This document shows positions 2,665 to 21,801 of a stretch of DNA of 21,801 nt, piece after piece; position 1 is the first letter of the stretch; the number at the start of each line of letters is the position of its first letter. Origin of the DNA: a virus. The stretch covers positions 1 through 21,801 of IMG/VR virus record IMGVR_UViG_3300034105_001587, one strand, 5' to 3'. The notes below the pieces were generated by a model that saw only the letters and a program-made list of their open reading frames with translations, was not told the DNA's origin and made no database searches. The position numbers were made by a program, and so were the translations under genes.

Positions 2665-2671
2665 TTTAAAA

Positions 2672-3622
2672 ATGAAAGAAAAAATATTAGAACCAAACAA
2701 TGACAGATTTGTTATTTTCCCGATAGAACATGATGATATATGGGAGTTTTATAAACAACATCAAGCGGCGTTTTGGACAGCGGAAGAAGTGGATTTATCA
2801 AATGATATTAGAGATTGGGAAAATTTATCAGACAATGAAAGATTCTTCCTTAAAAATGTATTGGCGTTTTTTGCGGCTTCGGATGGGATTGTAAATGAAA
2901 ATTTGGCGGAAAATTTCTTAAAAGAAGTACAGTATGCTGAAGCAAAGTTTTTCTACGGATTCCAAATTATGATGGAGAATATTCACTCATTAATGTATTC
3001 ATTATTGATTGATACCTATGTGTCAGATGATAAAGAAAAAGATGAATGTTTTCATGCTATAGATAGATTACCTGCTGTTCAGAAAAAGGCTAAATGGGCT
3101 CTTGATTGGATTGAAAACGCTTCTTTTCAAGAAAGATTGGTTGCATTTGCGGCGGTTGAGGGTATTTTCTTCTCCGGGTCATTCTGTTCAATCTTTTGGA
3201 TGAAATCGAGAGGAATAATGCAAGGATTATGTAATGCTAATACACTTATCTTTAAAGATGAGAACTTACATTGTGATTTTGCTATTCATTTAATTAATAA
3301 TCACGTTGAGAACAAACCAAGTGAGAAAAGAATTAAAGAAATATTATTATCAGCGTTAGAAATTGAAAAAGAGTTTATTACTGAATCATTACCTGTATCT
3401 TTAATAGGTATGAATTCAAATTTGATGAAACAATATCTTGAATTTGTAACTGATGGACTATTAGTTAAATTTGGTTGTAAAAAACATTTCAATGTTGAAC
3501 AACCATTTAAATTTATGGAACAAATAGCTGTTGAAACAAAAGGTAACTTTTTTGAATCAAGAACTATGGAGTACCAAAAGGCTAAGTTAGGAGAATCATT
3601 AACATTTACGGAGGATTTTTAA
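2672..3622 (+). CDS. nrdB: Ribonucleotide reductase class Ia, beta subunit (NrdB)
   Basis: NrdB is the radical-generating subunit of aerobic ribonucleotide reductase, which makes deoxyribonucleotides for phage DNA synthesis. All six di-iron ligands are visible: Asp71 (in ASDGIVNEN), Glu102 and His105 (in MENIH), Glu163 (in AVEGIFF), and Glu197 and His200 (in DENLH). The radical tyrosine is Tyr109. The SDGIVNENL and MENIHS motifs are of the eukaryotic/T4-like class Ia type. The acidic, Phe-ending tail (SLTFTEDF) fits the C-terminal peptide that docks on the alpha subunit. At 316 aa it is slightly shorter than T4 NrdB, and it appears complete with no intron. The stop is one base from the nrdA start, so the two are probably co-translated. 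Confidence 0.97.
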
Positions 3623-3623
3623 T

Positions 3624-6038
3624 ATGATGTCACTAAAAATTAAAAAAAGAGGGGGGGATGAGGTTTCATTCAACCCCCAAAAAATATATCAAAGAGTTAA
3701 ACGAGCGGCTAAAGGTATGAATGTGAATGCTGATGAGGTATTCATTAAAGTGATTACCTCTGTCCCAACTGAAGGTATTATCACAACAAAAGAGTTAGAT
3801 AAATTAGTTTATGAGATAGCGGCGGCTTACACTGGTAGTCATCACGATTATTCAAGATTAGCGTCTTCGGTGGCGATATCAGCTTATCATAAAGAAACTG
3901 ATGAGAGTTTTTGTAACACAATGGAAACACTATATTCTTATGGTACAATTAACGATGTGTTAATTAATACTATTAAAGAATATGGTGCTGAAAATATTGA
4001 TTCTGTAATAAATCACGAGAATGATTATAATTTTGACTATTTTGCGTGGAAATCGTTACAAGAAATGTATTTGTTAAAAACGCCTCAAGGTAAAGTAATT
4101 GAGAGACCTCAACATATGTATATGAGAGTGGCTCTATGGGTGACTAAATCATTTGAAGAAGCAGTTGAGTATTATAAATCATTGTCTAACCAACTTATAT
4201 CTCCGGCAACACCAATTATGATTAATGCGGGTACCAAAACACCTCAATTGGCGTCTTGTGTATTACATTATAACAATGGGGATTCTAGAGATGGATTGTT
4301 AGAAACATTAAACGATATATCAACTTATTCATCTGATGCTGCTGGTATTGGATTATGTATGTCAAATATTCGTAGTAAAGAAAGTCGTATTAACACATCA
4401 GGAGGGTTTGCGGGTGGATTATTAAAGTATCTTAAAATTGTGAATGAATCGTTAAGATTCTTTAACCAACAAGGTAGGAGACCGGGTAGTGCTGCCATCT
4501 ACATTGAACCTTGGCATAAAGACATTATTGATTTACTTGAGATTAAAAAGAATACAGGTGCTGAAGAATTGAGAGCGAAAGATTTATTCACCTCAATTTG
4601 GTTACCGGACAACTTTATGAATGCTGTTAAAAACAACGGTGATTGGTATTTGTTTTGTCCTAATGATATTGTCAAGGCGGGTATTAAACCATTGCAGGAA
4701 GCTTACGGAGATGAATATGAATCAAATTACGATAAAGCTGTTGAACTTGGTTTAGGTAAAAAAGTGAAAGCTCAGACAATTTGGAATAAAATCATTGAAT
4801 CTCAAGTTGAAACCGGAGTTCCTTACTTATGTTCTAAAGATAGTGCTAATAGAAAAACTAATCATCAAAACATTGGAGTGATTAAACAATCTAATCTATG
4901 TAATGAGATTTACCAATACACGGATGAAAATACCACAGCAATCTGTACATTATCGTCTATGGTATTAAAGAATTTTATCATAAAAGGTGAGTTTGATTTT
5001 AAATTACTATATAGTGAGGTTAGAAAGGTTGTAAGAGCTCTTAACAAAGTTGTTGATATTAATAGTTATTCAACTGAACAAGGTCGAAAAGGTGGGTTAG
5101 AACAAAGAGCAATTGCTATTGGAACACAAGGTCTTGCTGATGTATTCTATTTGATGGATTATATTTTCACATCTGAAGAATCAAAAAAGTTAAATAAAGA
5201 AATTTTTGAAACTATCTATTTTGCGGCAATTACTGAAAGTATGAATTTGTGTAAAACAGGTGAGTACGAACCATATAAATTCTTTGAAGGGTCACCAATG
5301 TCGAAAGGTATATTCCAATTTGATATGTGGGGGTTAGATTATGAAGGGTTAGGTAGAATGTGGGATTGGGATTCACTTAAAACAGAAGTGTCTAACCACG
5401 GGGTTTGTAACTCGTTATTCACGGCTCAGATGCCAGTAGCGTCTTCAGCTAAAATCACAGGTTCATTTGAAATGACAGAACCAGCTCACTCGGCTTTATT
5501 TAATCGTCGTGTTGTAGGTGGAGAAATTTTAATCGTTAATAAGTATTTAATTAGTGATTTTGAAAAAATGGGTGTTTGGTGTGAAGATTTGAAGAATGAA
5601 ATCATTATGAATGAAGGGTCTATTCAAAACATCAACTTCAATCATTATTTAGACCAGGAAGATAAGAATTATAACAAGAAAGTTAAACGAATTGAACATT
5701 TAATTCCGAAATATAAGACAATTTGGGAAATATCTCAAAGAGAATTAATTGATATGGCTGCGGACAGAGCACCATTTATTGACCAATCACAGTCAATGAA
5801 TATTTATATGTCTGACCCAACATTATCAAAGATTTCGTCATCACATTTCCATTCTTGGGGTAAAGGGTTAAAAACCCTTTGTTATTATGTTAGAACAAAA
5901 GCAATATCCACCGGAGCTAAACACTTGGCGGTAGATATTACAAAAATCCAACAACCAAAGACAATTGAAAAACCAACAGTTGATTTAACATCAAAACCAA
6001 CAGATACAGAATTTGAATGTTTTGGATGTGGTTCTTAA
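3624..6038 (+). CDS. nrdA: Ribonucleotide reductase class Ia, alpha subunit (NrdA)
   Basis: NrdA is the catalytic and allosteric subunit that pairs with NrdB. An ATP-cone domain occupies about residues 3-95 (LKIKKRGGDEVSFNPQKIY), predicting overall activity control. The active site is intact: Cys212 (LASCVLHY), the N-C-E triad Asn424/Cys426/Glu428 (SNLCNEI) and the second redox Cys441 (AICTLSS). The radical-transfer pair is Tyr754-Tyr755. The signature GRRPGSAAIYIEPWH lies near 290-305. The tail ends CFGCGS, with the Cys799/Cys802 pair expected to re-reduce the active site via thioredoxin or glutaredoxin. Two in-frame ATGs (3624, 3627) could start it; the first is one base after the nrdB stop. 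A GGAGG at 3610-3614 sits upstream but also encodes the end of NrdB. No intron or intein interrupts the gene. A7 and G7 runs lie at 3642-3657. Confidence 0.97.
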   Translation: MMSLKIKKRGGDEVSFNPQKIYQRVKRAAKGMNVNADEVFIKVITSVPTEGIITTKELDKLVYEIAAAYTGSHHDYSRLASSVAISAYHKETDESFCNTMETLYSYGTINDVLINTIKEYGAENIDSVINHENDYNFDYFAWKSLQEMYLLKTPQGKVIERPQHMYMRVALWVTKSFEEAVEYYKSLSNQLISPATPIMINAGTKTPQLASCVLHYNNGDSRDGLLETLNDISTYSSDAAGIGLCMSNIRSKESRINTSGGFAGGLLKYLKIVNESLRFFNQQGRRPGSAAIYIEPWHKDIIDLLEIKKNTGAEELRAKDLFTSIWLPDNFMNAVKNNGDWYLFCPNDIVKAGIKPLQEAYGDEYESNYDKAVELGLGKKVKAQTIWNKIIESQVETGVPYLCSKDSANRKTNHQNIGVIKQSNLCNEIYQYTDENTTAICTLSSMVLKNFIIKGEFDFKLLYSEVRKVVRALNKVVDINSYSTEQGRKGGLEQRAIAIGTQGLADVFYLMDYIFTSEESKKLNKEIFETIYFAAITESMNLCKTGEYEPYKFFEGSPMSKGIFQFDMWGLDYEGLGRMWDWDSLKTEVSNHGVCNSLFTAQMPVASSAKITGSFEMTEPAHSALFNRRVVGGEILIVNKYLISDFEKMGVWCEDLKNEIIMNEGSIQNINFNHYLDQEDKNYNKKVKRIEHLIPKYKTIWEISQRELIDMAADRAPFIDQSQSMNIYMSDPTLSKISSSHFHSWGKGLKTLCYYVRTKAISTGAKHLAVDITKIQQPKTIEKPTVDLTSKPTDTEFECFGCGS

Positions 6039-6062: not shown

Positions 6063-6088
6063 AATCACGACTTCGGTCGTGATTTTTT
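6063..6088 (+). terminator. Rho-independent terminator after nrdA
   Basis: A perfect 9-bp stem (AATCACGAC at 6063-6071, GTCGTGATT at 6076-6084) is closed by a TTCG tetraloop (6072-6075) and runs into six T residues (6083-6088). It lies 25 bases after the nrdA stop and separates the nucleotide-metabolism genes from the baseplate genes. It is the only classical intrinsic terminator I found in the window. Confidence 0.93.
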
Positions 6089-6135: not shown

Positions 6136-6594
6136 ATGGCAAATGGAACAACATATGGTTTAACTTTTCCCTTTAGAGATTCTTTTGATGGGAAATATTT
6201 GGACTTATCAGATTATAATGACCAAGAAACTAGGTCTAATTTAATCCATCTTTTATTAACTAGAAAAGGTAGTAGATATTATTTACCCGATTTTGGTACA
6301 AGATTATACGAATTTTTATTTGAACCTTTAGACGGACCAACATTTTCAGAAATAGAATCTGAAATACGAGAATCTGCGGGTGTTTATTTACCTGGTATAA
6401 CAATAACGAACATCAGTATTTATGCTGCATCAGATGATGATGAAGATAAAGGGAGTTATATAAATGATAACGATGAAAGAATATTTCGAGTACCGAACAT
6501 CTCAAATAATGAACATACGGCAAAAGTTAAAATTGATTATACCATCAATAATGATGTGTTTAACAGTAGTGACTTTGTAATTATTAATATATAA
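6136..6594 (+). CDS. 25: Baseplate wedge protein gp25 (GPW/gp25 family)
   Basis: This is a gp25-like wedge component of a contractile-tail baseplate, where gp25 nucleates the sheath and joins the gp6/gp53 wedge core. The 152-aa product carries the family pattern in order: DSFDGKYLDLSDYNDQ (about 13-28), then RSNLIHLLLTRKGSRYYLPDFGTRLYEFLFEPL (about 31-63), then ITITNISIY. The frame stays open upstream to a GTG at 6079, but that codon lies in the terminator stem. The ATG at 6136 gives the usual family length and N-terminus. An acidic insertion (SDDDEDKGSYINDNDE, about 100-117) lengthens it relative to T4 gp25 (132 aa). The gp6 homologue follows four bases after the stop, the usual wedge partnership. 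Confidence 0.93.
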   Translation: MANGTTYGLTFPFRDSFDGKYLDLSDYNDQETRSNLIHLLLTRKGSRYYLPDFGTRLYEFLFEPLDGPTFSEIESEIRESAGVYLPGITITNISIYAASDDDEDKGSYINDNDERIFRVPNISNNEHTAKVKIDYTINNDVFNSSDFVIINI

Positions 6595-6598
6595 AATT

Positions 6599-8437
6599 AT
6601 GGCAAACAAGAAAATATCCTATACTACGAGGGATTTCCAATCAATTAGAACAGAGTTAATTAATTTTACTAAAACGTACTATCCGGATACGATTCAAAAT
6701 TTTAATGATGCGTCTGTCTTTTCAGTATTATTAGATTTAAACGCCGCTGTAACGGATAACTTACAATTTAATATTGATAGAAGTATCCAAGAGACAGTTC
6801 TTCAGTATGCCCAACAAAGGTCTTCAGTTTTTAATATTGCAAAAACTTACGGATTAAAAGTTCCGGGTATGAGACCATCGGTTGCTTTGGTTGATTTTTC
6901 AATAACGGTACCGGCTTATGGAGATAAAGAGGATTTAAGATATTGTGGTATATTAAGAAGAGGGTCACAAGTTAATGGTGCGGGACAAGTATTTGAAACT
7001 GTTTATGATATTGATTTTTCTTCACCAATTAATTCAGAAGGATTTCCAAATAGATTAAAAATTCCTAATTTTGATTCAAACAATAAGTTATTAAATTATA
7101 CAATAACTAAACGAGAAACTGTTGTTAATGGAATAACAAAAGTGTTCAAAAAAGTGATGACACCAAATGATGTTAGACCTTTTTATGAATTATTTTTACC
7201 GGACAAAAATGTGTTAGGAATTACTAGTGTTCTATTAAAAGATAGTACTCAATATACTAATATTCCATCAGCACAAGAGTTTTTAGGGTTAGATAATAGA
7301 TGGTATGAAGTAGATGCGTTAGCTGAAGATAGAGTGTTTGTTGAAGACCCTACAAAAGTGTCAGATTCGCCAGGTATTAAAGTTGGAAAATATATCCAAA
7401 CTAGTACTAAATTTATTACTGAATTTACGCCTGAAGGGTTTTTAAAAGTTACCTTTGGTGGTGGTTCTCAATCGGCTGACGAACAATTAAGAGAATTTGC
7501 TAGAGATGGATATCAATTAAATTTATACAAGTACTCTAATAATTTAGCGTTAGGAAGCACGTTAAAACCAAATACCACATTATTCATCCAATATAGAGTT
7601 GGTGGTGGTGTTGGTAGTAATATTGGGGTTAATGCTATCACACAGATAGGAACGGTTTCATTCTTTGTTAACGGACCTTCAGATAGTGTTAATACAACTG
7701 TTGTAAATTCGCTGAGATGTACAAATGTAACGGCTGCAATTGGTGGGGCTAGTTTTCCTACGACAGAAGAAGTAAGAAATTTAGTTTCTTATAATTTTTC
7801 GTCTCAAAAAAGAGCGGTAACCGTTAATGATTATGAATCGATAATTAGAACAATGCCGTCACAATTCGGAGCACCGGCTAAAGTATCTATTACCGAGAAT
7901 AATAATAAAATTATTGTTCAAATGTTATCGTATGATGAAACGGGTAGATTAACAGAGGTGATTTCAAACACATTAAAAAATAATGTGGCAAATTACTTAT
8001 CAAACTATCGAATGATAAATGATTATGTGTCAATACAAAGTGCTAATGTTATTGATTTAGGGTTTAATATTGATGTTGTTTTAGATAACACTCAAAATCA
8101 AGGAAATGTGATTTCCCAAGTTATTACAATTGTGTCTGAATATTTTGACCCTACAAATAGACAAATGGGTGAAAATGTTAATGTTTCAGAATTAAGAAGA
8201 TTAATACAAAGTGAAAATGGGATAATTTCATTGTCTGATATACAGGTATTCAATAAAGTGGGGGGACAATATTCATCATCACAAACATCGCAGAGATATA
8301 TAGATAGTTCAACCTATCAGATAGAGTTAATTGACGATACTATTTTTGCAGAACCAAATCAAACTTATCAAATTAAATATCAAAACAAAGATATAAATAT
8401 TAGAGTTAAAAATTTAAAAACCGTTAATTTTTCTTGA
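6599..8437 (+). CDS. 6: Baseplate wedge protein gp6 (Baseplate_J-like)
   Basis: This is a gp6-type wedge protein, the dimer that forms the inner iris of the T4-like baseplate. The 612-aa length is close to T4 gp6 (660 aa). The N-terminus (YTTRDFQSIRTELINFTKTYYPD...FNDASVFSVLLDLNAAVTDNLQF) is the typical helical start of gp6/gpJ proteins. A beta-rich core follows, then the Baseplate_J-like C-terminal part, with RAVTVNDYESIIRTMPSQFGAPAKVSI near 400-430 and a ferredoxin-like domain near the end. The gene closes with tandem in-frame stops, TGA then TAG (8435-8440). It follows gp25 by four bases with a shared A/T-rich leader. No membrane segment is seen. Family assignment is strong; exact structural equivalence to T4 gp6 is inferred. 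Confidence 0.92.
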   Translation: MANKKISYTTRDFQSIRTELINFTKTYYPDTIQNFNDASVFSVLLDLNAAVTDNLQFNIDRSIQETVLQYAQQRSSVFNIAKTYGLKVPGMRPSVALVDFSITVPAYGDKEDLRYCGILRRGSQVNGAGQVFETVYDIDFSSPINSEGFPNRLKIPNFDSNNKLLNYTITKRETVVNGITKVFKKVMTPNDVRPFYELFLPDKNVLGITSVLLKDSTQYTNIPSAQEFLGLDNRWYEVDALAEDRVFVEDPTKVSDSPGIKVGKYIQTSTKFITEFTPEGFLKVTFGGGSQSADEQLREFARDGYQLNLYKYSNNLALGSTLKPNTTLFIQYRVGGGVGSNIGVNAITQIGTVSFFVNGPSDSVNTTVVNSLRCTNVTAAIGGASFPTTEEVRNLVSYNFSSQKRAVTVNDYESIIRTMPSQFGAPAKVSITENNNKIIVQMLSYDETGRLTEVISNTLKNNVANYLSNYRMINDYVSIQSANVIDLGFNIDVVLDNTQNQGNVISQVITIVSEYFDPTNRQMGENVNVSELRRLIQSENGIISLSDIQVFNKVGGQYSSSQTSQRYIDSSTYQIELIDDTIFAEPNQTYQIKYQNKDINIRVKNLKTVNFS

Positions 8438-9455: not shown

Positions 9456-12400
9456 ATGTCAAAGTCATATAGAATAAGAACAAAAGTTGGTGTTGATACT
9501 TCTTTAAAAGTATTAATTGAACAAGAATTCGAACATTTAGAGATTCTATCCTTAAAAATATTACAAAGTGATATCTACACTAGACAATGCTCCGATTATG
9601 GTGTTATTGTGGGTCGTGTTAGTGTTAATAATGGATTCGGTATCCCAAATGCTAAAGTTTCTATCTTTATCCCTATTGATAGTGAAGACCAAGATAATCC
9701 AATAATCTCTGAATTATATCCATATAAATCATTACTTGATATAAGTGATGACGGTTATAGATATAACCTATTACCTTATGTTAAATCATATAGTGCTCAT
9801 GTTCCTACGGGAACATTCTTTACGAGAACAGATGTTTTAACTAATCCAACATTAATTGAGGTTTACGACAAATATTATAAATATAACGCAATTACTAATG
9901 ATAGTGGTGATTACATGATATTTGGGGTTCCTGTTGGGTCTCACACTCTTGTAATGGATGTTGATTTATCCGATATCGGGGAATTTTCATTATCCCCTCA
10001 AGATTTAATTAGAATGGGTATTGCGACAGAATCTCAAGTCGCTGGTACTAATTTTAAATCTTCAAATAATTTACGTGAATTACCCCAGATTATTAATCTT
10101 AGTAAATCTATAGAGGTGGAACCATTATGGGGACAACCTGAAATTTGTAATTTAGGGATTGTAAGAACAGATTTTGATTTAAGTAGTGATGCGAATATTG
10201 ATATTCGACCAACATCTATTTTTATGGGTTCAATAATTTCAGGACCAAACACTAGTGCTTTGACAGAAAATTGTCGACCACCAAATAAATCGGGACATTT
10301 ATGTAATTTAACTGTTGGTCCGGGTGACATATTGGCTATCAGACAGACAATTCAACAGGATTCAAGCGGTAGACCTATTTTAGAAAATTTTAGTTTAGAA
10401 AATGGGGGAAAAGTCATTGATGAAAACGGTACTTGGTTAATCGACGTTCCTATGAATTTAGATTACTACACAACTAATGAATTTGGGGAACAAGTGTTAT
10501 CTAATGACCCTGAAGTAGGTGTTCCAACTAAAGGTAAATATAGATTTAAGGTTAAATGGGCTCAATCACCATCTTTAGGGGAAACAATTAAACGAGCAAA
10601 TTTCTTAGTTCCAAATATTAAAGAATATAATAGCCCTAATACTGACGAATCATATTCGTTTAGTGTAGATTGGGGGGATTATGCTTATAGCGGGTTAACA
10701 CCTGGTGATGTTAATAATGTTTTATCAAAAAAAATAGTCCAAGAAGCTATTGATTGTGAAGATAGGTTTTATATGATGCAATATAATAAAGTTTACACTG
10801 TTTCACAATTTATTAATGCAAATAGAAGTGGGTCGGGAACTGAAAGATATATAGGTATTAAAAACATATTAGAAGAAACTTGTAATAGTGTTAATAATAG
10901 GTTTCCGACTAACGATGGTAATTTTAGATTTGATATTATATATATTATTTTTATGTTTTTTAGTATAGTATTAACACCTATATTTTTTGCTTTAATATTA
11001 TTATTACATATTTTATATTTTTTAATTGGTCTACTGATTGACTATCTTCTACCAATTATAATTGGTTGGTGTGCCTATCAAGCAACAAACTCTTTTATAC
11101 AAGGATGTGTTGCATACCCCGCAGTGGGGTTAATTGCGGGATTCTTCGCTTTAAGTGCGTTTTTTATTGTGTTAGGTGTTAAATTTGGTAAAGTACTAAA
11201 GAAATTAAAAGAAATAGATAGAAAGGGTGTTAAAGTACCTATTTTAACTTATCCTGAATGTGATTTATGTAGTTGTAAACCTGAATCGTCAACGAGTGAA
11301 GGTGAAAAGGATGACTCAATTACTGCTTCGGAGAATCAGGTAAAACCTTGTAATGGTATCGTTTCAAATACGGATTTAACATCGATAACCCTTTCTGATG
11401 GGATTTTACCGTTATTTAATGGTGGTTCTTTTAAGTTACCAGTTAACGGTCCAAATGTTTCTGGTGGTTTTACTTCTGAATTTGCGGCTGGGTACACGCA
11501 AGAATTAACAGGATTAGTATATGATGGTCAGTATGCGTCGGTTAACATTGGTGCGCCATTCATGTTTCAGGTTATTTTCGGAGATGGTACATCAACCGAG
11601 AGAAGGGTTCTTTATACAACTAGTTTACCAATGGCGGATAGAGTTAACTTATTTAATGTTAAAGCAAAATATTTTGACGAGACACCAATAAATCCTGGGG
11701 GGGGTGTAAATAGAATTACCGTTAATTTTCAACCAACACAAACAAATAACAAACATTATGACAATACACTTGTTATTCTTTGTAGTAAGTCAACACTACA
11801 AAGTCTCTCTCCTGGACAATTAATCTCATTTCAAAATCCGACAATGAGTAAAGATATTAACGTAACAGGTGGTATTGTTAATATTTATGGTAATAACGCT
11901 ATAACCGGAGTAACATCAACTGGTTTAACTTCCATAAATGTGTCATACGCAAATTATAACGGAAATGGGAGTACTACAGTACCATATTCTGTTAACATTA
12001 CGGCGGACACTACAAATAATGTACATAAATTCCCAACAGACATAGAATATTTTCAAGTTATTACGGGAATGACATATAGTGACTTTAGTAGTCAATGTAG
12101 CACTCAAATTAATTATAATTCATTAAATAATCGTTATTTAAACAATACAACTTTCATCGCTCAAGAATATTTTCAAGCGAACATTCGACTAACATCTATC
12201 GTACGAGTGAATAGATACGTTGCGGATAATGTTACGTTAAGACCGATGATATATATACCTGACTATCAACAAATTTGTGTTTTAATTTTAAATCGAGGTG
12301 TTGACCCTTACACACCTAAAGTACCAATATCTTATGGTTTAGGTAGGATATTTGGGGATAGTTCGGAAAGTTATAAAACAGTTACGGGTCTTTACCATAT

Positions 12401-14804
12401 GAATATACCAATTCAGGGTGGTTATAAAAATATTAGTCATTTAAATTCTGACTATATAAATGGAAGTAATTTAAATCCTGATTCGTATTCACAATCAAAT
12501 CAAAAATTATATTTTAATTCATTTTCGTATAAACCACAGATTCAAACAATCATAGACCCTGCCTTAACTGGTTATACGTTAGGTGTTAAAGTTGTTTATT
12601 CAGGGGTTACAAATTCAGGGTATTCCGGATTTTCGTCAAATCTTATTAGTTATTATTCTAGTGTTGATAATCGTGCTTTGGGGTTTATAGCTTCGTGTGG
12701 TGGAAATATCACCGGTCCAAAGGCGATTGATAATAGTGTTGCAGTAAGCAGTGGTTTGGGGTTATATATTTCACCACAAAATAGGTTTTCTCAAGAGATA
12801 TATACAAAACGGTTGTTTTCTGCCACAACATACTCATCATATTATATAAATTACATTGATTTGACGCGTCCATATAAACCAGGGACACCTGTAAATCAAG
12901 GGTATTTTCCTAAAGAAATTATCGAAGGTGGTCCGTTAATGTATTGTGATATAAACTTATTCAATGATTATAAGTTAAAATTTTCTGATGATGACGAAAC
13001 AAATGACAGACCGGCAAGATTTTACAATACGGCTGATAAAGCTGGTAATTACACATTAACGTCAAATTATTATTCACCAATATATAATACAACAGGTAAT
13101 ACTTTAAATTTCTCATTAGGCTCAAGTGGGAACCAAATTGTAATGAGAGGTGATAGATTGCCAACATCTACAAATGTTGAGGAATATTGTTGTAATGGAA
13201 TGGTGTTGCAGAAAAATAATAATTTTCAAATATATTTAGTTCCTGAAGAGGGTGTATTAAATATTAATAGTTCTCAAGGTTCAACAGGTTCTGCGGGGGC
13301 TGGAGATTTTAATGGTGTTGTTGATGATTTAGCTGAATCGACTGGAATAACTAAAGTTTTTGAATCGTTTAATTGTGCTGACTCTGTTAATTTGGATTGT
13401 TATGATTGTGAAAGTACTAATGGTACTAATGGTGGTCCAAATAGTACTATAAAGGTAAATTATGATGGTTGTAGAGAATTTAAAGGTAAAATAATATTTC
13501 AATATGGGTGTTATAAATTTATCACAACAATATGGTTATCACTATTTAAAGATTGGGAGTTAATGTTTGAGTGGATTGCTCGAAATATGGTATTATTAGG
13601 TGCTTGTAGAAATGTCTTTTCACATAGATTTGTTAATAATTGGGTTAATGGTGTGTTATATGCGTTTCCGTTTAAAAATCAAATTAAAGGTTATACGGCA
13701 CCAACATTTGTACCACCTAATCAACCTATAATGTCTTATTGTTCCGATACTATTAGATATCATTATCAAACAAAAAATTTCTATTATAGGGCGACGATTT
13801 ATAATACGGTAACAAATCAGTTTGTTACAAATACGTCGGGTAATATTGGATTTCCAACAACAATTATTGATTTAGGTCCGAGGTCTGATTATATGCAAGA
13901 ATTGGTTATGTCTGACGAGTATGATGGGTATGTTGCGAATAAATTGGATTCATCATCTTATGGTGTTGTTGACGACATTCTTAATTTATTTATAGTTAGT
14001 CGATTTATTAATAAAACGTTTTTGAAAACACTACTTGGGGCTTTTAATATACTTGCTTATTTTAAAAATGAACGTGGTAAGGTGGGTAATGGTGGTACTA
14101 AATATATGATAGATGCTGATTATTCACAATTAATTTCTATTAATTCAGAATTAGGTGTTGCACCGTTTACACCCGCAAATTACCCTGATAATCCTGACAA
14201 AACAAAACAAAACCCAATTTTCTTTAACTGTGATAATGTTTTCGGTATTTTCTTTACGGCGGATACTCAGATAAGAGATTATATCACACCAAAAAGAACT
14301 ATTATAAATCCATCAGGTACTACAACTAGTAATTGTACTTTTAATAATTTTCCGGTGTACTCCCAAAGAGTTCCATTATCTCAATGGTCAATACAACCAA
14401 ACAAAGATAATAGGAACCTTAGTTATATTTTTGGTACACAAGAGAATAATTGGGATTTTTCTGTGAGCGGAGGTGGTGGAAGTAATCAAACAATATTTTC
14501 TCAAAAATATCAGTCATTAGATAGATTAAATCCGAGCTCAAGGTATTTTAGAAGTACAGGTAGTAATCAAGCACAATATCAAAAAGGATATATATACGCT
14601 GTTGAAACTTATATTGACCCAATAACAAATAATCCCACAATTGATTTGACGGCAGATGTTTTCTATTGGGACAAAAATCCAAAGGATGAACAATCGGTGA
14701 CGGTGGGAGCACCATTTCATTTTTACTTTGGTTTAAGACGAGGTGCGTCATCGTATGATAGATTTAGAACTAAATGGGTAAACACAAGTAATATAGTAAA
14801 TTAA
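9456..14804 (+). CDS. Giant 1782-aa virion/baseplate-region protein with internal membrane-like block
   Basis: This is the largest gene in the window. Residues about 48-172 form a carboxypeptidase-regulatory-like (Ig-type) beta domain: GVIVGRVSV...GIPNAKVSIFIP, an insertion, then AITNDSGDYMIFGVPVGSHTLVMDVD. A second beta-rich segment follows (about 250-370). Residues 494-575 are strikingly hydrophobic, enough for three or four membrane passes, followed by a basic stretch (KFGKVLKKLKEIDRKGVK) and a Cys cluster (Cys602, Cys605, Cys607). The centre to about 1290 is Thr/Ser/Asn/Tyr-rich beta sequence. A second Cys cluster (Cys1307, 1315, 1318) precedes an aromatic, partly hydrophobic region (about 1354-1400). 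An 8-G run lies at 11697-11704. Its place after gp6 matches T4 gene 7, but I see no gp7 sequence signature. A baseplate or host-contact role is inferred from context. Confidence 0.85.
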   Translation: MSKSYRIRTKVGVDTSLKVLIEQEFEHLEILSLKILQSDIYTRQCSDYGVIVGRVSVNNGFGIPNAKVSIFIPIDSEDQDNPIISELYPYKSLLDISDDGYRYNLLPYVKSYSAHVPTGTFFTRTDVLTNPTLIEVYDKYYKYNAITNDSGDYMIFGVPVGSHTLVMDVDLSDIGEFSLSPQDLIRMGIATESQVAGTNFKSSNNLRELPQIINLSKSIEVEPLWGQPEICNLGIVRTDFDLSSDANIDIRPTSIFMGSIISGPNTSALTENCRPPNKSGHLCNLTVGPGDILAIRQTIQQDSSGRPILENFSLENGGKVIDENGTWLIDVPMNLDYYTTNEFGEQVLSNDPEVGVPTKGKYRFKVKWAQSPSLGETIKRANFLVPNIKEYNSPNTDESYSFSVDWGDYAYSGLTPGDVNNVLSKKIVQEAIDCEDRFYMMQYNKVYTVSQFINANRSGSGTERYIGIKNILEETCNSVNNRFPTNDGNFRFDIIYIIFMFFSIVLTPIFFALILLLHILYFLIGLLIDYLLPIIIGWCAYQATNSFIQGCVAYPAVGLIAGFFALSAFFIVLGVKFGKVLKKLKEIDRKGVKVPILTYPECDLCSCKPESSTSEGEKDDSITASENQVKPCNGIVSNTDLTSITLSDGILPLFNGGSFKLPVNGPNVSGGFTSEFAAGYTQELTGLVYDGQYASVNIGAPFMFQVIFGDGTSTERRVLYTTSLPMADRVNLFNVKAKYFDETPINPGGGVNRITVNFQPTQTNNKHYDNTLVILCSKSTLQSLSPGQLISFQNPTMSKDINVTGGIVNIYGNNAITGVTSTGLTSINVSYANYNGNGSTTVPYSVNITADTTNNVHKFPTDIEYFQVITGMTYSDFSSQCSTQINYNSLNNRYLNNTTFIAQEYFQANIRLTSIVRVNRYVADNVTLRPMIYIPDYQQICVLILNRGVDPYTPKVPISYGLGRIFGDSSESYKTVTGLYHMNIPIQGGYKNISHLNSDYINGSNLNPDSYSQSNQKLYFNSFSYKPQIQTIIDPALTGYTLGVKVVYSGVTNSGYSGFSSNLISYYSSVDNRALGFIASCGGNITGPKAIDNSVAVSSGLGLYISPQNRFSQEIYTKRLFSATTYSSYYINYIDLTRPYKPGTPVNQGYFPKEIIEGGPLMYCDINLFNDYKLKFSDDDETNDRPARFYNTADKAGNYTLTSNYYSPIYNTTGNTLNFSLGSSGNQIVMRGDRLPTSTNVEEYCCNGMVLQKNNNFQIYLVPEEGVLNINSSQGSTGSAGAGDFNGVVDDLAESTGITKVFESFNCADSVNLDCYDCESTNGTNGGPNSTIKVNYDGCREFKGKIIFQYGCYKFITTIWLSLFKDWELMFEWIARNMVLLGACRNVFSHRFVNNWVNGVLYAFPFKNQIKGYTAPTFVPPNQPIMSYCSDTIRYHYQTKNFYYRATIYNTVTNQFVTNTSGNIGFPTTIIDLGPRSDYMQELVMSDEYDGYVANKLDSSSYGVVDDILNLFIVSRFINKTFLKTLLGAFNILAYFKNERGKVGNGGTKYMIDADYSQLISINSELGVAPFTPANYPDNPDKTKQNPIFFNCDNVFGIFFTADTQIRDYITPKRTIINPSGTTTSNCTFNNFPVYSQRVPLSQWSIQPNKDNRNLSYIFGTQENNWDFSVSGGGGSNQTIFSQKYQSLDRLNPSSRYFRSTGSNQAQYQKGYIYAVETYIDPITNNPTIDLTADVFYWDKNPKDEQSVTVGAPFHFYFGLRRGASSYDRFRTKWVNTSNIVN

Positions 14805-14805
14805 T

Positions 14806-16623
14806 ATGGATGACATTAGAATTGTTTTAGGTTCGTTACGATATAAAACGGCAACTAACACTGATTTATCAATACCGACACCGTTAGTTCAAAACACGAA
14901 AATTTTACAGGAATTTGACAGAAGTATAGATGTTAATCTTCCTCAATTATTTGATGATGAAAGACAAAAATCAACAACATTTAGACCTGTGTGTAAATTT
15001 CAGTTATTATATAGTAATTCGTACACAGGGTCAACAAATTATACGCCATTAGAAAATAATCTATATTATATTAATGAAACTAATTTAGCTATAAAACAAT
15101 GTAATCTTAATCCTGATGCGGTTTCTTGGGAGGGATTTCCCCAATATTACGAGTTTGATTTTGTTCGTAGTGATTATAATATTAGTGGTTACACTCAACC
15201 ACCAAACAATCATATAAATTTTATATCAAAGAGTGCTTCAACATACAATTGGAATTTTTTCATGAGTTATCCTTATAGAAATTCGTACAGTAAAGTGTTA
15301 CAATATTATTCAGGTTCAACATTAATTCCATGGGTTGTTTCAGATGGTATACCGTTTATCATTAAATCAACCAATACGTTTATTAATGGAAGTCGTGTGG
15401 TTCAATTTGTGTGTCCGGTTAAACATGGGTTATCTGTTAGTGAATTTGCTAAAATAAAAATAGTGGTTAATAACACAATAAAAACAGAAGGGACATTTCA
15501 GATATTTGAACTGGGTGATAGTATGCCAGGAACAGAAGAATATATATTCAATATTTATGATATTGGTTATTCAGCAACAACATTTGTTGTTGGGTATCAT
15601 GGTACTTTTAAAAGAATTATTAATTATGAAAATCCAACAGACACAACTTCAAAATACTATGTATTACAACATAAGTTATTAACAAATGTTAATGATTATG
15701 TATTAGTAAATGCTGGGTTTGAACAAAATATATTTGGAGCTAAAAAGAAATTTGAAAGTGCGTTTTACACCCCTAACCAAACTACAAGGGTTTCAATTAA
15801 AGAAGGTGCTCAATCATATAGTTTATCTTTTAATAAAGACATTGATATTAATAAATTAAGGGATAATCAAAAAAGACCAGTAACTGATTTATATGTTACA
15901 ACAATATGGAAAGGTTATTTTGGTTTAACACTCGGGTCTAAAAATGGTCAAGGACAATATGTTGGGTTAAAACAAGGGTATGAATTTAACATACCTTTAT
16001 CGTCAATTGGATTTCCAAGTAGTTGGTGGGAATCGACAAATACATTATCTAATTTTGTTGATGGAAATAATTTACCATATCCTTTGGGTACTTTAATTCC
16101 TGCTACCACTACTTCATATGTTTTTAATTATATGCAATCTCTAAAAGAAGGGGATATTGTTGATGGTGGGATTTATGAATGGAATGATTACGAGCAAAAA
16201 GAAAGAATGATTAGCGACATTTCACATAAATTTACGTTTAATAGTAATGTTTTTGATATTAGTTCAACAGATAATAACAATAATCAAAAGGGTTATTATT
16301 ATCAGCCACATAATAAAATGAAAATTAGAGATTTCTCTGATTATATTGAAACAGGGAGTATTAAGGATATGGCGGGTGTTCCGGATTATTCATATTTCTC
16401 AACAACATATAATTCATTTATTTGGAGAGATTTATATCCTTATGGTTTTAAGGATAATAAACAAAATGGTGTTGATTATCCGTTTTTAAATGGAAAACAT
16501 TATCCATATGAGAATTTTATTTTTAGAATAATACCGGAAGGAACTAATTATATACAAAGTAGTTTAAATAATTATGCAACTCTTTACGGAGCTGCTCAAC
16601 CAAAAACAGACGATTGTGAATAA
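14806..16623 (+). CDS. Uncharacterised 605-aa virion protein
   Basis: I do not recognise this family. The ATG at 14806 is one base after the preceding stop (TAATATG). The product is Tyr/Asn/Ser-rich with alternating hydrophobic residues throughout, suggesting an all-beta virion protein. It has no signal peptide, membrane segment or coiled coil. The N-terminus (MDDIRIVLGSLRYKTATNTDLSIPTPLVQNTKILQEFDRS) looks like a conserved start module, and the C-terminus ends in an acidic, Cys-containing tail (PKTDDCE). Its reading frame closes with three consecutive in-frame stops, TAATAATAG (16621-16629), of which only the first counts. Its position within the baseplate cluster supports a structural role, such as a wedge periphery or fibre-attachment protein, by inference only. 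Confidence 0.82.
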   Translation: MDDIRIVLGSLRYKTATNTDLSIPTPLVQNTKILQEFDRSIDVNLPQLFDDERQKSTTFRPVCKFQLLYSNSYTGSTNYTPLENNLYYINETNLAIKQCNLNPDAVSWEGFPQYYEFDFVRSDYNISGYTQPPNNHINFISKSASTYNWNFFMSYPYRNSYSKVLQYYSGSTLIPWVVSDGIPFIIKSTNTFINGSRVVQFVCPVKHGLSVSEFAKIKIVVNNTIKTEGTFQIFELGDSMPGTEEYIFNIYDIGYSATTFVVGYHGTFKRIINYENPTDTTSKYYVLQHKLLTNVNDYVLVNAGFEQNIFGAKKKFESAFYTPNQTTRVSIKEGAQSYSLSFNKDIDINKLRDNQKRPVTDLYVTTIWKGYFGLTLGSKNGQGQYVGLKQGYEFNIPLSSIGFPSSWWESTNTLSNFVDGNNLPYPLGTLIPATTTSYVFNYMQSLKEGDIVDGGIYEWNDYEQKERMISDISHKFTFNSNVFDISSTDNNNNQKGYYYQPHNKMKIRDFSDYIETGSIKDMAGVPDYSYFSTTYNSFIWRDLYPYGFKDNKQNGVDYPFLNGKHYPYENFIFRIIPEGTNYIQSSLNNYATLYGAAQPKTDDCE

Positions 16624-17440
16624 TAATAGTTATAAATTTACCTTACCAAAAGGTGATGACAAATATATCAATATACCAATTGAAATTAAATGGGATTTTC
16701 TTGGGCAGGATGATGCTATAGATGAGTATCAAGACAATGTTGTTGAAGAGATTGTGGGGTTTCCCGGTGATTTTGAGGTGACAAGATTTGCGCACGCATC
16801 TTATAGTGGAGATACCAAAACAGACATTAAATATGATTTTCATTTTTTTAGTGTTAATGGAGGTGTCCCAACTAATCCTTCGACTCAAGTTTTAACGTCA
16901 TCACCTAGTAATTGGATTACAAGTTATATACCTGAAGGATTTACAACAATTGAAATATATTATTATGTAAAGCCATTCACTAAATCTTTTTTTAAGTTGG
17001 ATTTTTACGATAGTAAAGATGCGATAACTCAAACCAATTATTTTACAGTGATACTTCCGGTTCAACAAGGGTTTACTGTGACAGGATTGACAAGTGCTTA
17101 CAAAACTCCGGTTAATATTAAAACACCGTCATTTCAATTAGATTATGTTGGTGATAAAGAAGGGTTCTTTTTATATTGGTTAAGAAATACGAAATTTTTA
17201 AATATTAGTAAATTTTATATGACGGCAAAATTTTTTGATGCTAGATTGGGTTTTTTTATTAAAATGACTAATACACCTCAAAGTAATATTGTTTCAAAAT
17301 TTAAATTTAATCCTGAAAATTATTTTTACTATGAAGTTAGGTTAAATTATAATGAAAAAACGTATCAGGTTTTTGATAACTCAAATACCCGTGTTGGAAC
17401 AACAAGTTCCATAAAATGGTATGAATATATAAATCCGTAA
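16616..17440 (+). CDS. Uncharacterised ~274-aa virion protein (probable GTG start)
   Basis: I do not recognise this family. The frame is open back to an ATG at 16574, but the codons between 16574 and 16612 (CTC, CTG, CTC, CAG) are of a kind rarely used by neighbouring genes, while the overlapping frame there has the usual codons. I therefore prefer the GTG at 16616, which overlaps the previous stop by eight bases. The ATG start (288 aa, 50-base overlap) remains possible, as its A/T-rich leader resembles other starts here. The protein opens with YKFTLPKGDDKYINIPIEIKWDF and is beta-rich with many aromatic residues. No membrane segment or enzyme motif is seen. It is followed one base later by the next gene (TAATATG). 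A structural role is inferred from its neighbours. Confidence 0.8.
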   Translation: MNNNSYKFTLPKGDDKYINIPIEIKWDFLGQDDAIDEYQDNVVEEIVGFPGDFEVTRFAHASYSGDTKTDIKYDFHFFSVNGGVPTNPSTQVLTSSPSNWITSYIPEGFTTIEIYYYVKPFTKSFFKLDFYDSKDAITQTNYFTVILPVQQGFTVTGLTSAYKTPVNIKTPSFQLDYVGDKEGFFLYWLRNTKFLNISKFYMTAKFFDARLGFFIKMTNTPQSNIVSKFKFNPENYFYYEVRLNYNEKTYQVFDNSNTRVGTTSSIKWYEYINP

Positions 17441-17441
17441 T

Positions 17442-18602
17442 ATGACAGAAAGAGATTATCGTATTAAGATATCCCCCGAATTTATTAAAAGTGATATTTT
17501 TCAGGTTATTTACACCGCTAATACTATTACAGGTAGTAGTATTGTTGATGAGTGTTGTATTAAACCTGCAGAGACCTTTAAAATACATTTAACGGGTGGT
17601 ACGTATGTTTATTCATCAATGACTGAAGTGTTATCGGGAGGTACGGATGGTTATTCATTATTAACCGGATTGACAATTCCCATCTTATTAACTGAAACAA
17701 CGGTAGATGTTGGATATTATTCTGTGTTTGACGGTATGGTGTTACAACAAGACACTATGTTAAATTTTGTTTATTCGGGTAGTGGTAATACTTGTCATTT
17801 TTATAACACAACAGACACTGAATTTAAGAAATATTTGGAGTTTTCTAACTATAAAATAGATTGGGGGGATAATACACCGATTCAAACAGTTACACCATCA
17901 ACAACATTAGTACACCCTTACCAAATTACAACAGGATACACAATAACTATGTCGGGTATGAGTCCTTGGGGTACAAATATTATAACAAAAACAATTAACT
18001 TACCCTTAAATGGTACCACAATACCAAATAAAAAAGGTGAGGTCAATTTTCAACCAGCCGGAGGTAATTGGTCTAATACTTTATTATCGTATGATTATAT
18101 ATTCAGTGGTGATTCAAGTTGTGATGCAACATTAAACGATATTAATTTATTTAATCCGGTTAATACTGTACCATTTTTAATTACAGGTTTTACCACTTCA
18201 TCGTTGAGTGATTTAAAACAATACGGTACTCGATTATATAAGCCTAATGTTCAAGTAACGGGAAACACTGGAATGATTGGTACATATTCAGGTGTGACTT
18301 CAGATGGGTTATTAACGGCATACACAATTAATAATATTGATTATTATGATTATCCGGATGGGACAACTCTTTTTGTTGTTAAATCTGTGGGTTTAACTCC
18401 TGATATGTTGAATTGTGAACCAATTGTGAAAAATGAATTATTATTAGGCATAATTGATGAAGCAGAAATACAATCTAATATATTTATTGAAAGAGGAAAG
18501 AACTCAGCTCTTGAGAGAGTTGAAAGATTGGGTGAAGTTGACAATGTGGGTGACCTTGAAAAGTACGGATATAAATTTTTTAACGTAAATACTAGTATAT
18601 AA
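17442..18602 (+). CDS. Uncharacterised 386-aa virion protein with PKD-like segment
   Basis: A beta-rich protein of the baseplate cluster. Residues about 130-188 resemble a PKD-type Ig fold: NYKIDWGDNTP (WGD at 141-143), then LVHPYQ (157-161) and a following strand pair ending in TKTINLPL. PKD-like domains usually mediate protein-protein or carbohydrate contacts. The last ~45 residues (IFIERGKNSALERVERLGEVDNVGDLEKYGYKFFNV) are charged and helical, quite unlike the rest, and look like a separate attachment or assembly module. The start is one base after the previous stop (TAATATG), and the end is likewise one base before the next ATG. No transmembrane segment or signal peptide is seen. The function is unassigned; a structural role is inferred. 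Confidence 0.82.
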   Translation: MTERDYRIKISPEFIKSDIFQVIYTANTITGSSIVDECCIKPAETFKIHLTGGTYVYSSMTEVLSGGTDGYSLLTGLTIPILLTETTVDVGYYSVFDGMVLQQDTMLNFVYSGSGNTCHFYNTTDTEFKKYLEFSNYKIDWGDNTPIQTVTPSTTLVHPYQITTGYTITMSGMSPWGTNIITKTINLPLNGTTIPNKKGEVNFQPAGGNWSNTLLSYDYIFSGDSSCDATLNDINLFNPVNTVPFLITGFTTSSLSDLKQYGTRLYKPNVQVTGNTGMIGTYSGVTSDGLLTAYTINNIDYYDYPDGTTLFVVKSVGLTPDMLNCEPIVKNELLLGIIDEAEIQSNIFIERGKNSALERVERLGEVDNVGDLEKYGYKFFNVNTSI

Positions 18603-18603
18603 T

Positions 18604-19512
18604 ATGGCAACAGGAACATATGGAACAATAAGACCGGCAGACGTGAGTCCGGAAGATGTTGAGATAATTTTAAATTATACACCATCAAGAGATGATACTG
18701 ATAATTTTGTATTAACAAAATTGAATGCGTTGTCAATTTTAAGACCGTATTTTAATAATGATACCACAGGGGTAAATAACGGTATTGAGATATTGGGTGG
18801 TTTATATAATTTAAAATTACCTGCGGAACAATTTAATCAAATAGGTATTTATACCGTATTCATTAGACCGGCTCAAATAAGAACTACAATATTAGATTGT
18901 GGTGTTTTATCTGCTTTACCTAATGTTAAAGGGTTAATTTTTGATTTAAATTCGGTTGATTCAGATTATAGAAACAAATTTGTCACTCAAGGTTTAGTTG
19001 GATTTAGAATAGAGTATTTAAATTCTGATGGAACAAAGATACCTAATTTTTTTAGAATAATAACCTCATCATTTTTTTGTGAACCAGTTGTTCAAAATTT
19101 AACTAACTCATCTCAAAAAGCAATAAGATATAAATATACTGATAACAATAGTAATTTATTATTCTGTACTTTATCACCGTCTTCGGCACCAACAAATAAG
19201 CCAAATGCAACACCGTATATAGGACAACCTAATCAGAATGTAATTATAACAAATACTTTCTTTAATCCAATTACGTTAGACATTGAAATTGGTGAACACG
19301 ATTTCTCAACATTGGCAATTGCTCTTTATGGTAATCAAACTAAATCTATTGATGATGGAATTTACACTCTATACGATAATGCTAATAACATATACAAACA
19401 ATACAATTTATATGAAATTAGAGACCAATTTAATGAGTTATTATATGAAGTTAGACAAGATAGAGGAAATAACATTGATTTTAGTAAAAACTTTACAAAT
19501 ATAACTCAATAA
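18604..19512 (+). CDS. Uncharacterised 302-aa virion protein
   Basis: I do not recognise this family. The N-terminal half has a compact pattern suggestive of conservation (IRPADVSPEDVEIILNYTPSRDD, then NGIEILGGLYNLKLPAEQFNQIGIYTVFIRP at about 60-90). The middle part is Asn/Ser/Pro-rich (about 175-215). The C-terminal third (IALYGNQTKSIDDGIYTLYDNANNIYKQYNLYEIRDQFNELLYEVRQDRG) looks helical and charged. There is no signal peptide or membrane segment. The ATG is one base after the previous stop. The TAA stop shares its last base with the ATG of the next gene, so the two are probably translationally coupled. Its position supports a baseplate or tail-fibre-network component, by inference. Confidence 0.82.
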   Translation: MATGTYGTIRPADVSPEDVEIILNYTPSRDDTDNFVLTKLNALSILRPYFNNDTTGVNNGIEILGGLYNLKLPAEQFNQIGIYTVFIRPAQIRTTILDCGVLSALPNVKGLIFDLNSVDSDYRNKFVTQGLVGFRIEYLNSDGTKIPNFFRIITSSFFCEPVVQNLTNSSQKAIRYKYTDNNSNLLFCTLSPSSAPTNKPNATPYIGQPNQNVIITNTFFNPITLDIEIGEHDFSTLAIALYGNQTKSIDDGIYTLYDNANNIYKQYNLYEIRDQFNELLYEVRQDRGNNIDFSKNFTNITQ

Positions 19513-21801
19513 TGGCGATAGAAAAATTTACGTGTCCACCACAAACAGCATCCGGTGCGGGTACATTCTCCGATAATTTAGTTGGGTTTCAACTTGTTAC
19601 TGGAGGGGGTTTGACGCAAGGTAATTTTGAATTTACTAAAAGTATTACAGAAAAATCTAACCGAACTTTTACAACAGGAGCGTTTTCAAACCCTATTAAT
19701 TTAGATGGGTTAGGTGTTAATAGTGTTGCACAATCAAAGGCTATTTTTGAAAATAATTTTAAAGTTTATCCCAATTTTGATTTAACTCAAGTAACTAATT
19801 TTACAACATATGGGTCGATGGTTAAAAGAATCTCAACCTCTGTTGAGATTATTATTAGTAAATTTCCTGCGGCGTTGGAGGTTACTTTCATGGATGAAAA
19901 TTATTTAACAGGTGCGACGGCAACCAATATTTCTTATAATCCGGTAACTTACGAGACAAAGATTGAATTGGATGTTGCAAGAATTAGAAATCCGTTTGAT
20001 ATTGATTTCACGGTTAACTCAACAAGAAATTTAGAATTAAGAGAAATCCAAGTTTCACCATTGAGAAATATGACAACTCAATTTACTAAATACTCTTTAT
20101 ATTATAGTGGTGTTGGTTATGATGTGGTTTATATTGACCCAACAACATCATTAACATCGGGAACTCTTAAAATATATCTTAAAGGAGATGTTTTTTTAGG
20201 TAAAACAGAAATATATGATGATTTAGTTATTAGACCAAATGATTATCAAGTTAATAGAGTTTTTAATGAAAGTTTAGATGAGGTTCAAAGATTTTTGTTA
20301 AATAGAAATGTGGTACCTATTTACACAGCGACATTTCAAGTTCCTAATGAAAATACTGATGGGACTTATTATATTCAAAATAAATTGGTTACATGGCCTT
20401 TATATGGTAATTGGAATTTAGATATATTAACAAATTCTTTCTCAACTTATTTGACAACATTAAATAATATTAGTGTGTCTTTTGATGGGTATCAAACAAA
20501 TCTCGTTTCAAGATTTTTAACGACAGATTCTATTAAAGAATTTGATACTTCTGACCAAAAAATTGAAAAAATATTACAAATTTACGGAAGAAGTTTTGAT
20601 GAAACTAAAAAGTTCATTAATGGTATGGCGTATATGAATTCTGTGAATTATAATATTGGTAACGATATTCCATCACAATTATTAAAGAATTTATCACAAA
20701 CATTAGGTTGGTCAACAAATATGTCACCAATTAGTAATGATGATTTTTTAGGTTCAATATTTGGTCAAAAAAACGTTGATAAATCATCATTTAGTGGTGT
20801 GGGACAATCTCAAACACCCGATGAATTGAATTATCAATATTATAAAAATTTAGTTCTTAATTCTGCCTATCTATTCAAATCAAAAGGTACTCGAAAATCA
20901 ATTGAAACTTTAATGAGATTAATCGGTGCTCCGGATGCTTTAGTTGAATTTAATGAATATGTTTGTTTGGCTGACCAAAAAATAAATATGTCAGATTTTG
21001 ACTTACAATACGCTAAAATATCTGGAGGAACATATACTAAAGTATTACCAACATTAGATGGTGGTGACACCTTTAAAATACAAGAAATTGAATATTCAGG
21101 TTTCACAACAACATCTGTTCTTCAGGAAGTTAATTTAAGTCAATCCGATTATCCGGTTAGTAATGATGGATATCCGTCATCACCGATTAATTCAGACACA
21201 TATTTTTATCAAATGGGTAGTGGGTGGTTTGAGTCCACACCTAAACACAGGTCACCGGAACAACCGGATTTAACTAATAGTGTTTTTACCGGAGCAAACC
21301 CTAATTATCAAACAAAATTATCCCCATTTACTTACGGTCAAGAATATCTTAATGTTTATGACTCATTTCCTTTTATGACTTTGGGTTATAATTTAATGAC
21401 AGCAATCGATAATAACAAAAGTTGGGTTGATACTGAAATTGGGGGTAGAAATAATTTAGATGGTGGTTACAATGCGTTATATTATACTGATAGTGAAAAA
21501 TTAGTAATTAATGTTAAAAACATTGACTTATTTTTAAATCCGGCTCAAGGATTGTCGTATGATGTTTGGTCAATGTCAAGAGAATATAATTTTCCGATAG
21601 CGAATGAAGGTTTAGGTTATGTTGAACCAACAAGATGTAATCCTAATCCGGTGTCGTTATATCCGCATAAAGGAGGGGTGGATTCAACAAAGATTAATCC
21701 ACAACCAAGAAAAGAAACATTTTTTGAATTTGCTCAAACATTTTGGAAAAACACCATTAATGTTAGAAATAGACAATTTTCAACAGACGGACACACTAGT
21801 G
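19512..21801 (+). CDS. Large virion protein with tail-protein-I-like core, 3'-truncated by window edge
   Basis: The frame is open from the ATG at 19512 (overlapping the previous TAA by one base) to the right edge, giving at least 763 residues without a stop. Residues about 30-310 are beta-rich. Residues about 340-480 are helical: YGRSFDETKKFING (358-371), IPSQLLKNLSQTLGW (about 388-402), then YYKNLVLNSAYLFKSKGTRKSIETLMRLIGAP with KSKGTRKSIE at 456-465. This order (short helix, leucine-rich helix ending in LGW, Arg/Lys-Gly-Thr helix followed by a Leu/Ile-Gly) resembles the P2 gpI / phage tail protein I layout, a wedge component of contractile tails. Beyond about 480 the sequence is beta-rich again and Tyr/Asn/Pro-rich. 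The resemblance is by eye, so the specific function is tentative. Confidence 0.85.
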   Translation, partial: MAIEKFTCPPQTASGAGTFSDNLVGFQLVTGGGLTQGNFEFTKSITEKSNRTFTTGAFSNPINLDGLGVNSVAQSKAIFENNFKVYPNFDLTQVTNFTTYGSMVKRISTSVEIIISKFPAALEVTFMDENYLTGATATNISYNPVTYETKIELDVARIRNPFDIDFTVNSTRNLELREIQVSPLRNMTTQFTKYSLYYSGVGYDVVYIDPTTSLTSGTLKIYLKGDVFLGKTEIYDDLVIRPNDYQVNRVFNESLDEVQRFLLNRNVVPIYTATFQVPNENTDGTYYIQNKLVTWPLYGNWNLDILTNSFSTYLTTLNNISVSFDGYQTNLVSRFLTTDSIKEFDTSDQKIEKILQIYGRSFDETKKFINGMAYMNSVNYNIGNDIPSQLLKNLSQTLGWSTNMSPISNDDFLGSIFGQKNVDKSSFSGVGQSQTPDELNYQYYKNLVLNSAYLFKSKGTRKSIETLMRLIGAPDALVEFNEYVCLADQKINMSDFDLQYAKISGGTYTKVLPTLDGGDTFKIQEIEYSGFTTTSVLQEVNLSQSDYPVSNDGYPSSPINSDTYFYQMGSGWFESTPKHRSPEQPDLTNSVFTGANPNYQTKLSPFTYGQEYLNVYDSFPFMTLGYNLMTAIDNNKSWVDTEIGGRNNLDGGYNALYYTDSEKLVINVKNIDLFLNPAQGLSYDVWSMSREYNFPIANEGLGYVEPTRCNPNPVSLYPHKGGVDSTKINPQPRKETFFEFAQTFWKNTINVRNRQFSTDGHTS

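Follow-up and report, generated by a model that had tools for sequence, protein, structure and literature searches.

What does a long, strongly hydrophobic segment do in a protein encoded among phage baseplate genes? The question is raised by the window (the whole stretch of viral DNA analysed, 21,801 nucleotides), which encodes a large protein, P0001, with such a segment in its middle. How DNA passes across the inner membrane in contractile-tailed phages is poorly understood. The reading preferred here, to which a probability of roughly 0.45 is assigned, is that P0001 is associated with the baseplate and carries a membrane-inserting element, which would work by analogy with the hydrophobic loop of phi29 gp9.

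Hydrophobic block and predicted structure of P0001

The P0001 ORF is intact from ATG to stop codon and encodes 1782 aa (9456-14804, + strand; Table 1). Residues 494-575 (bases 10935-11180) form a block in which 69 of 82 residues belong to the set AILMFVWCYG and only one is charged. The mean Kyte-Doolittle hydropathy of this block is 1.98; when the protein was shuffled 5,000 times, no stretch of 82 aa exceeded 1.61. Hydropathy above 1.6 over 19 residues is confined to residues 487-582. Insertion energies were calculated on a position-independent translocon scale with approximate scale values; this gave -4.2 kcal/mol for residues 509-527, and no other ORF of the window had a value below +3. The block is followed by a basic stretch (KFGKVLKKLKEIDRK) and by Cys602, Cys605 and Cys607, which are almost invariant in homologs. 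A preliminary description of the locus had pointed out the hydrophobic block, the basic stretch and the three cysteines, and all of them are present. The label "transmembrane" for the block is a prediction based on hydropathy and conservation.

AlphaFold was employed for two overlapping parts of the protein. The model of residues 1-880 is weak overall (pLDDT 59.9, pTM 0.39), and its most confident parts include two long helices in the block, at 494-552 and 557-585 (pLDDT about 76-90). The structural check proposed earlier for the block thus returned the helices and not their placement. The model of residues 640-1782 is better (pLDDT 75.6, pTM 0.58) and predicted to be beta-rich. A Foldseek search with this C-terminal half against PDB and BFVD gave no match with E <0.001, and a VIA comparison gave none above Z 2.4; VIA helix matches to chemoreceptors and GtrB were set aside as generic long-helix matches. 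Near the N-terminus, a carboxypeptidase-regulatory-like domain had also been proposed, and the predicted fold of residues about 47-249 bears this out by its similarity to human carboxypeptidase N (Z 10.4, rmsd 2.0, 79 residues). The corresponding Pfam family, CarboxypepD_reg, is matched weakly: it was reported at E<1 for 18 of 20 homologs, with 0.002 as the best E, and was not reported for P0001 itself.

Table 1. Features of the P0001 locus, with positions in the window and residue numbers of P0001
Feature	Position	Strand	Remarks
gp25-like baseplate gene	6136..6594	+	First ATG 6136
gp6/gpJ-like baseplate wedge gene	6599..8437	+	
Optional gene between gp6 and P0001	8469..9380	+	N-terminal hydrophobic segment and alpha/beta-hydrolase-like part; in 40/149 loci
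P0001	9456..14804	+	Founder of a new family
Residues 1-480	9456..10895	+	Best conserved part; 66% mean pairwise identity (104 homologs); dN/dS 0.07
Residues about 47-249	9594..10202	+	Predicted carboxypeptidase-regulatory/transthyretin-like beta sandwich with insertions
Cys476	10881..10883	+	Invariant (104/104 homologs), 18 residues ahead of the block
Residues 494-528	10935..11039	+	Hydrophobic run, conserved; acidic residues nearly absent; dN/dS 0.12
Thr507-Pro508	10974..10979	+	Polar/Pro break near the middle of the 35-residue run; position 507 is T, R, Q or K in 91/104 homologs, Pro508 in 75/104
His518	11007..11009	+	Within the hydrophobic run; 102/104 homologs
Residues 529-590	11040..11225	+	Hydrophobic, variable in length and sequence, basic stretch at end; 16% pairwise identity, dN/dS 0.36
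Residues 595-607	11238..11276	+	Motif PILTYPECDLCSC; Cys602 and Cys605 104/104, Cys607 102/104
Residues 640-1782	11373..14801	+	Predicted beta-rich C-terminal half (AlphaFold pLDDT 75.6)
Residues about 1363-1393	13542..13634	+	Predicted long helix, weakly hydrophobic in some homologs
605-aa neighbour	14806..16623	+	Order constant
288-aa neighbour	16574..17440	+	Order constant
386-aa neighbour	17442..18602	+	Order constant
302-aa neighbour	18604..19512	+	Order constant; strongly conserved (73-96%)
ORF 19512	19512..21800	+	KGT motif; counterpart of the isolates' large post-gp6 protein; cut at window end

Conservation of the block in the P0001 family

P0001 defines a family that carries no Pfam, PHROG or NCBIfam name. 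Pfam and PHROG gave no match at 0.01, and NCBIfam matches to TrbF and MscL were dismissed as lying far under the cut-offs of these families. With P0001 and the divergent homolog L143 as tblastn queries, none of 50,697 phage records (INPHARED) was matched. The P0001 profile gave no match in the whole records of T4 and the three nearest phages (see below) even at E 10, and no relative was found in GTDB genomes. The only match in a PDB sequence search, an ABC transporter at E 1.3, was rejected as chance-level. In IMG/VR, at least 167 P0001 stretches were confirmed with a single-sequence query and at least 598 with an alignment query, numbers that do not count independent genomes, as the contigs overlap. 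The lineage is abundant but uncultured.

The alignment comprised 167 full-length proteins, 104 of which are less than 95% alike and constitute the non-redundant set. The block was found in every aligned homolog. Its best 19-residue Kyte-Doolittle value is at least 2.01 throughout the non-redundant set (104/104), and charged residues account for 4.7% of the block compared with 16.8% of the protein. By the same translocon scale, two of the 104 blocks lack a 19-mer with an insertion energy <1 and 25 contain a single one, a point against the preferred reading. Block length ranges from 55 to 145 residues: three homologs (L122, L166 and L204) have almost only the first hydrophobic run, and the longest blocks would suffice for about four transmembrane-like stretches. 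Mean pairwise identity among the 104 homologs falls from 66% in residues 1-480 to 36% in 494-528 and 16% in 529-590; it is 56% in 591-607 and 33-47% in the parts from 640 to 1782. Asp493 is conserved in 100 of these homologs. The dN/dS values among close relatives, pooled over 62 non-independent pairs and suited as a guide only, are 0.07 for residues 1-480, 0.12 for 494-528 and 0.36 for 529-590. Residues 494-528 are under strong purifying selection. Two homologs, L204 and L193, have a second hydrophobic stretch (KD 1.9-2.1) in the C-terminal half, close to where residue 1170 of P0001 aligns.

That composition is held while sequence and length drift is the pattern to be expected of lipid-facing helices, and a packed core is hard to reconcile with it. 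The membrane-like character noticed in the single sequence extends to the family, in which the block looks membrane-seeking. Alternatively, the block could be a buried scaffold, an all-hydrophobic helix bundle that packs on itself, on gp6, on the ORF 19512 protein or on further wedge components, with no contact to lipid at any stage. Long helix pairs are indeed predicted in the block, and the invariant Cys476 and the Cys602/605/607 cluster bracket it and could lock a hairpin. However, the divergence of the second half and the variation in block length are unlike a tightly packed core, and the scarcity of charged residues likewise speaks against burial, which is considered unlikely.

Gene neighbourhood and comparison with T4 gp7

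The order gp25-gp6-P0001-605-288-386-302-19512 is constant within contig reach in the examples listed from 149 loci, which were selected through P0001 itself. P0001 was also present in 68 of 73 loci picked by gp6 and in 78 of 80 picked by the ORF 19512 gene. Four of the five exceptions in the first set lie on contigs that stop at most 360 bases from gp6, the fifth (L228) having 1.3 kb downstream, and both exceptions in the second set lie on contigs that start at most 2.6 kb from the ORF 19512 gene. These loci, selected without reference to P0001, rule out that it is a lone oddity of the window. The placement of P0001 in a virion gene cluster, as given in the preliminary description, is upheld by the gp25 and gp6 families directly upstream and by the constant order in relatives, and from this gene order P0001 would be expected to be present in virions.

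It could nevertheless be a non-virion membrane protein, acting in host takeover or in the envelope, with a gene that lies in the baseplate cluster by chance. None of its sequence relatives is annotated as a virion protein, and the hydrolase-like gene upstream likewise encodes an N-terminal hydrophobic segment, yet that gene is optional. This explanation is very improbable given a gene order that is fixed in essentially all loci examined, the well-conserved N-terminal 480 residues, and a beta-rich protein with a carboxypeptidase-regulatory-like domain.

Several further observations were made in this region. The optional gene encodes a GHSIGG lipase-like motif, gives weak alpha/beta-hydrolase matches and is fast-evolving (46-76% in examples). 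The baseplate genes come directly after those for a DnaB helicase and the two subunits of ribonucleotide reductase (1282-6038), and relatives share this order. The GTG listed as start of the gp25 gene (6079) falls within a terminator-like hairpin after NrdA (6063-6084), and ATG 6136 is therefore the more likely start.

By gp6, the nearest annotated relatives are Flavobacterium phage immuto, Microcystis phage Mel-JY01 and the uncultured LR756508. Their large post-gp6 proteins have 1265-1400 aa and a hydropathy that never exceeds 1.6. P0001 had initially been assigned to the gene-7 position, an assignment that did not survive profile comparison: the post-gp6 protein of these phages matches ORF 19512 (hhalign probability 94.6-95.6, E about 1e-8) and not P0001 (probability 0.5), and P0001 gave no match to T4 gp7 either (probability 0.44). 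By its sequence profile, P0001 thus looks like an additional gene of the lineage and not a counterpart of the post-gp6 protein. As ORF 19512 could not be linked directly to T4 gp7, it is named here only as the isolates' counterpart. No relation was found between the 605-, 288-, 386- and 302-aa neighbours and the smaller genes around gp6 and the ORF 19512 counterparts of the isolates.

The premise that T4 wedge proteins are soluble and free of membrane-like segments proved incomplete. T4 gp7 (L159:5061-8156), like P0001 a large protein whose gene adjoins gp6, has one transmembrane-like helix at residues 888-906 (KD 2.07, insertion energy -0.17 on the same translocon scale), and its record text states that the "C-terminus is predicted integral membrane domain". 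A segment of this type alone is therefore no proof of membrane contact, and the T4 gp7 helix is the chief reason for caution in giving P0001 a membrane role. Because T4 gp7 is a wedge protein within solved baseplates, the hydrophobic helices of P0001 may simply be buried, which favours the scaffold over a membrane-inserting element. The T4 helix is, however, a single short one towards the C-terminus, whereas the P0001 block is central, longer and much more hydrophobic. A further point against the preferred reading is that a wedge part normally remains external to the outer membrane, and hydrophobic helices are unusual in that setting.

Comparison with membrane-active tail proteins and lineage

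The relative G002, a contig of 272 kb, encodes a sheath, a tube and a protein of the hub family in the same region, and its P0001 gene follows gp6. In the G002 tail module (sheath, tube, hub), the insertion energy is not negative for any other ORF, among them a 581-aa ORF that adjoins the hub. This makes P0001 the strongest candidate for a membrane-active component. The 581-aa ORF is the most helix-leaning of the ORFs compared and, by composition and place, a tape-measure candidate. In diffocins, the tape measure CD1366 has five predicted transmembrane helices proposed to enter the target membrane, and such membrane-like helices in a contractile tail resemble the P0001 block (PMC10996793). P0001 itself does not resemble a tape measure in composition or place: it is beta-rich instead of mostly helical or coiled coil, and its gene lies after gp6 and not near tube and hub, the distance to the G002 tube gene being about 28 kb. 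The 581-aa ORF is the better candidate in G002. The tail region of G002 (L156 and L157, 92541-112648) further contains a 1197-aa sheath and giant ORFs of 1637 and 2307 aa, the latter with no PHROG match.

When DNA is released, the hydrophobic L-loops of phi29 gp9 move out of the knob and make up a helix barrel for the membrane (PMC6542822). In P0001, as in phi29 gp9, soluble domains flank a long hydrophobic, predicted helical insertion (PMC6542822), and the knob proteins of C1 and Andhra are grouped with phi29 gp9 as the closest systems (Andhra, PMC9710869). In contrast, all three are podophages without a contractile sheath, and P0001 is much longer. No sequence or fold relation of P0001 to the phi29 type was found, and no gp9-like entries for the knob fold were among the matches listed for both P0001 models, of which the 1-880 model is weak. 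Another baseplate protein, the RcGTA megatron, is proposed to insert into the membrane and form a pore; it differs in that its N-terminus is used and the particle is non-contractile (PMC7296036). Literature searches for a membrane-spanning baseplate protein yielded no description of P0001.

According to the preferred reading, P0001 would be a structural, baseplate-associated protein peculiar to one jumbo myophage lineage. Its conserved N-terminal part would dock in the tail machine, and block 494-590 would form a helical hairpin-like element that is hidden in the free virion. A shape change of the baseplate would release this element, which would then insert into the host membrane and either anchor the tail or line the DNA path, acting like the phi29 gp9 hydrophobic loop but in a contractile tail. 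We infer the hiding and release of the block, its membrane insertion and the copy number of P0001. That His518 or the Cys cluster might serve as a lock or trigger, or form a metal site, is speculation prompted by their conservation. It seems doubtful that the membrane-entry element has moved from the tape measure to a giant baseplate protein, as a hairpin with an intramembrane His and a base closed by Cys476/602/605/607 that deploys on contraction. If P0001 does carry a dedicated membrane element outside the tape measure, it would offer a precise target for the step of DNA passage, namely residues 494-590, His518 and the four Cys residues.

Since it begins some 490 residues from the N-terminus, a polytopic segment of this kind would be expected to engage the membrane-insertion pathway while the protein is being synthesized. 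This speaks for a different role, in which the block would sit in the inner membrane of the infected cell as an anchor on which baseplates are built, later to be carried into the virion or cut off. The basic residues after the block (mean K+R 3.5 in 576-600) are as in positive-inside topology. To our knowledge, virion proteins with such segments, including tape measures and phi29 gp9, reach the particle and are not used as membrane anchors during assembly, and this anchor is regarded as rather unlikely compared with a membrane-inserting element of the baseplate.

The P0001 lineage probably consists of jumbo myophages infecting Bacteroidetes. In G002, the bS21 gene is located on the opposite strand between the portal and the head protease/major head protein genes, an arrangement reported for freshwater Bacteroidetes jumbo phages in the available part of a study that, in the same part, does not describe a P0001-type tail protein (PMC9723584). 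This gene arrangement suggests that the lineage is the same as that of the bS21-encoding phages. The host and habitat of the window itself would follow from these relatives, with lake bacteria as the probable hosts. The ORF after the ORF 19512 counterpart in G002 (L158:13897-17466) contains several SprB repeats (Pfam E 9e-20), a feature of Bacteroidetes gliding adhesins; these repeats fit a Bacteroidetes host, and the ORF possibly encodes a host-binding protein.
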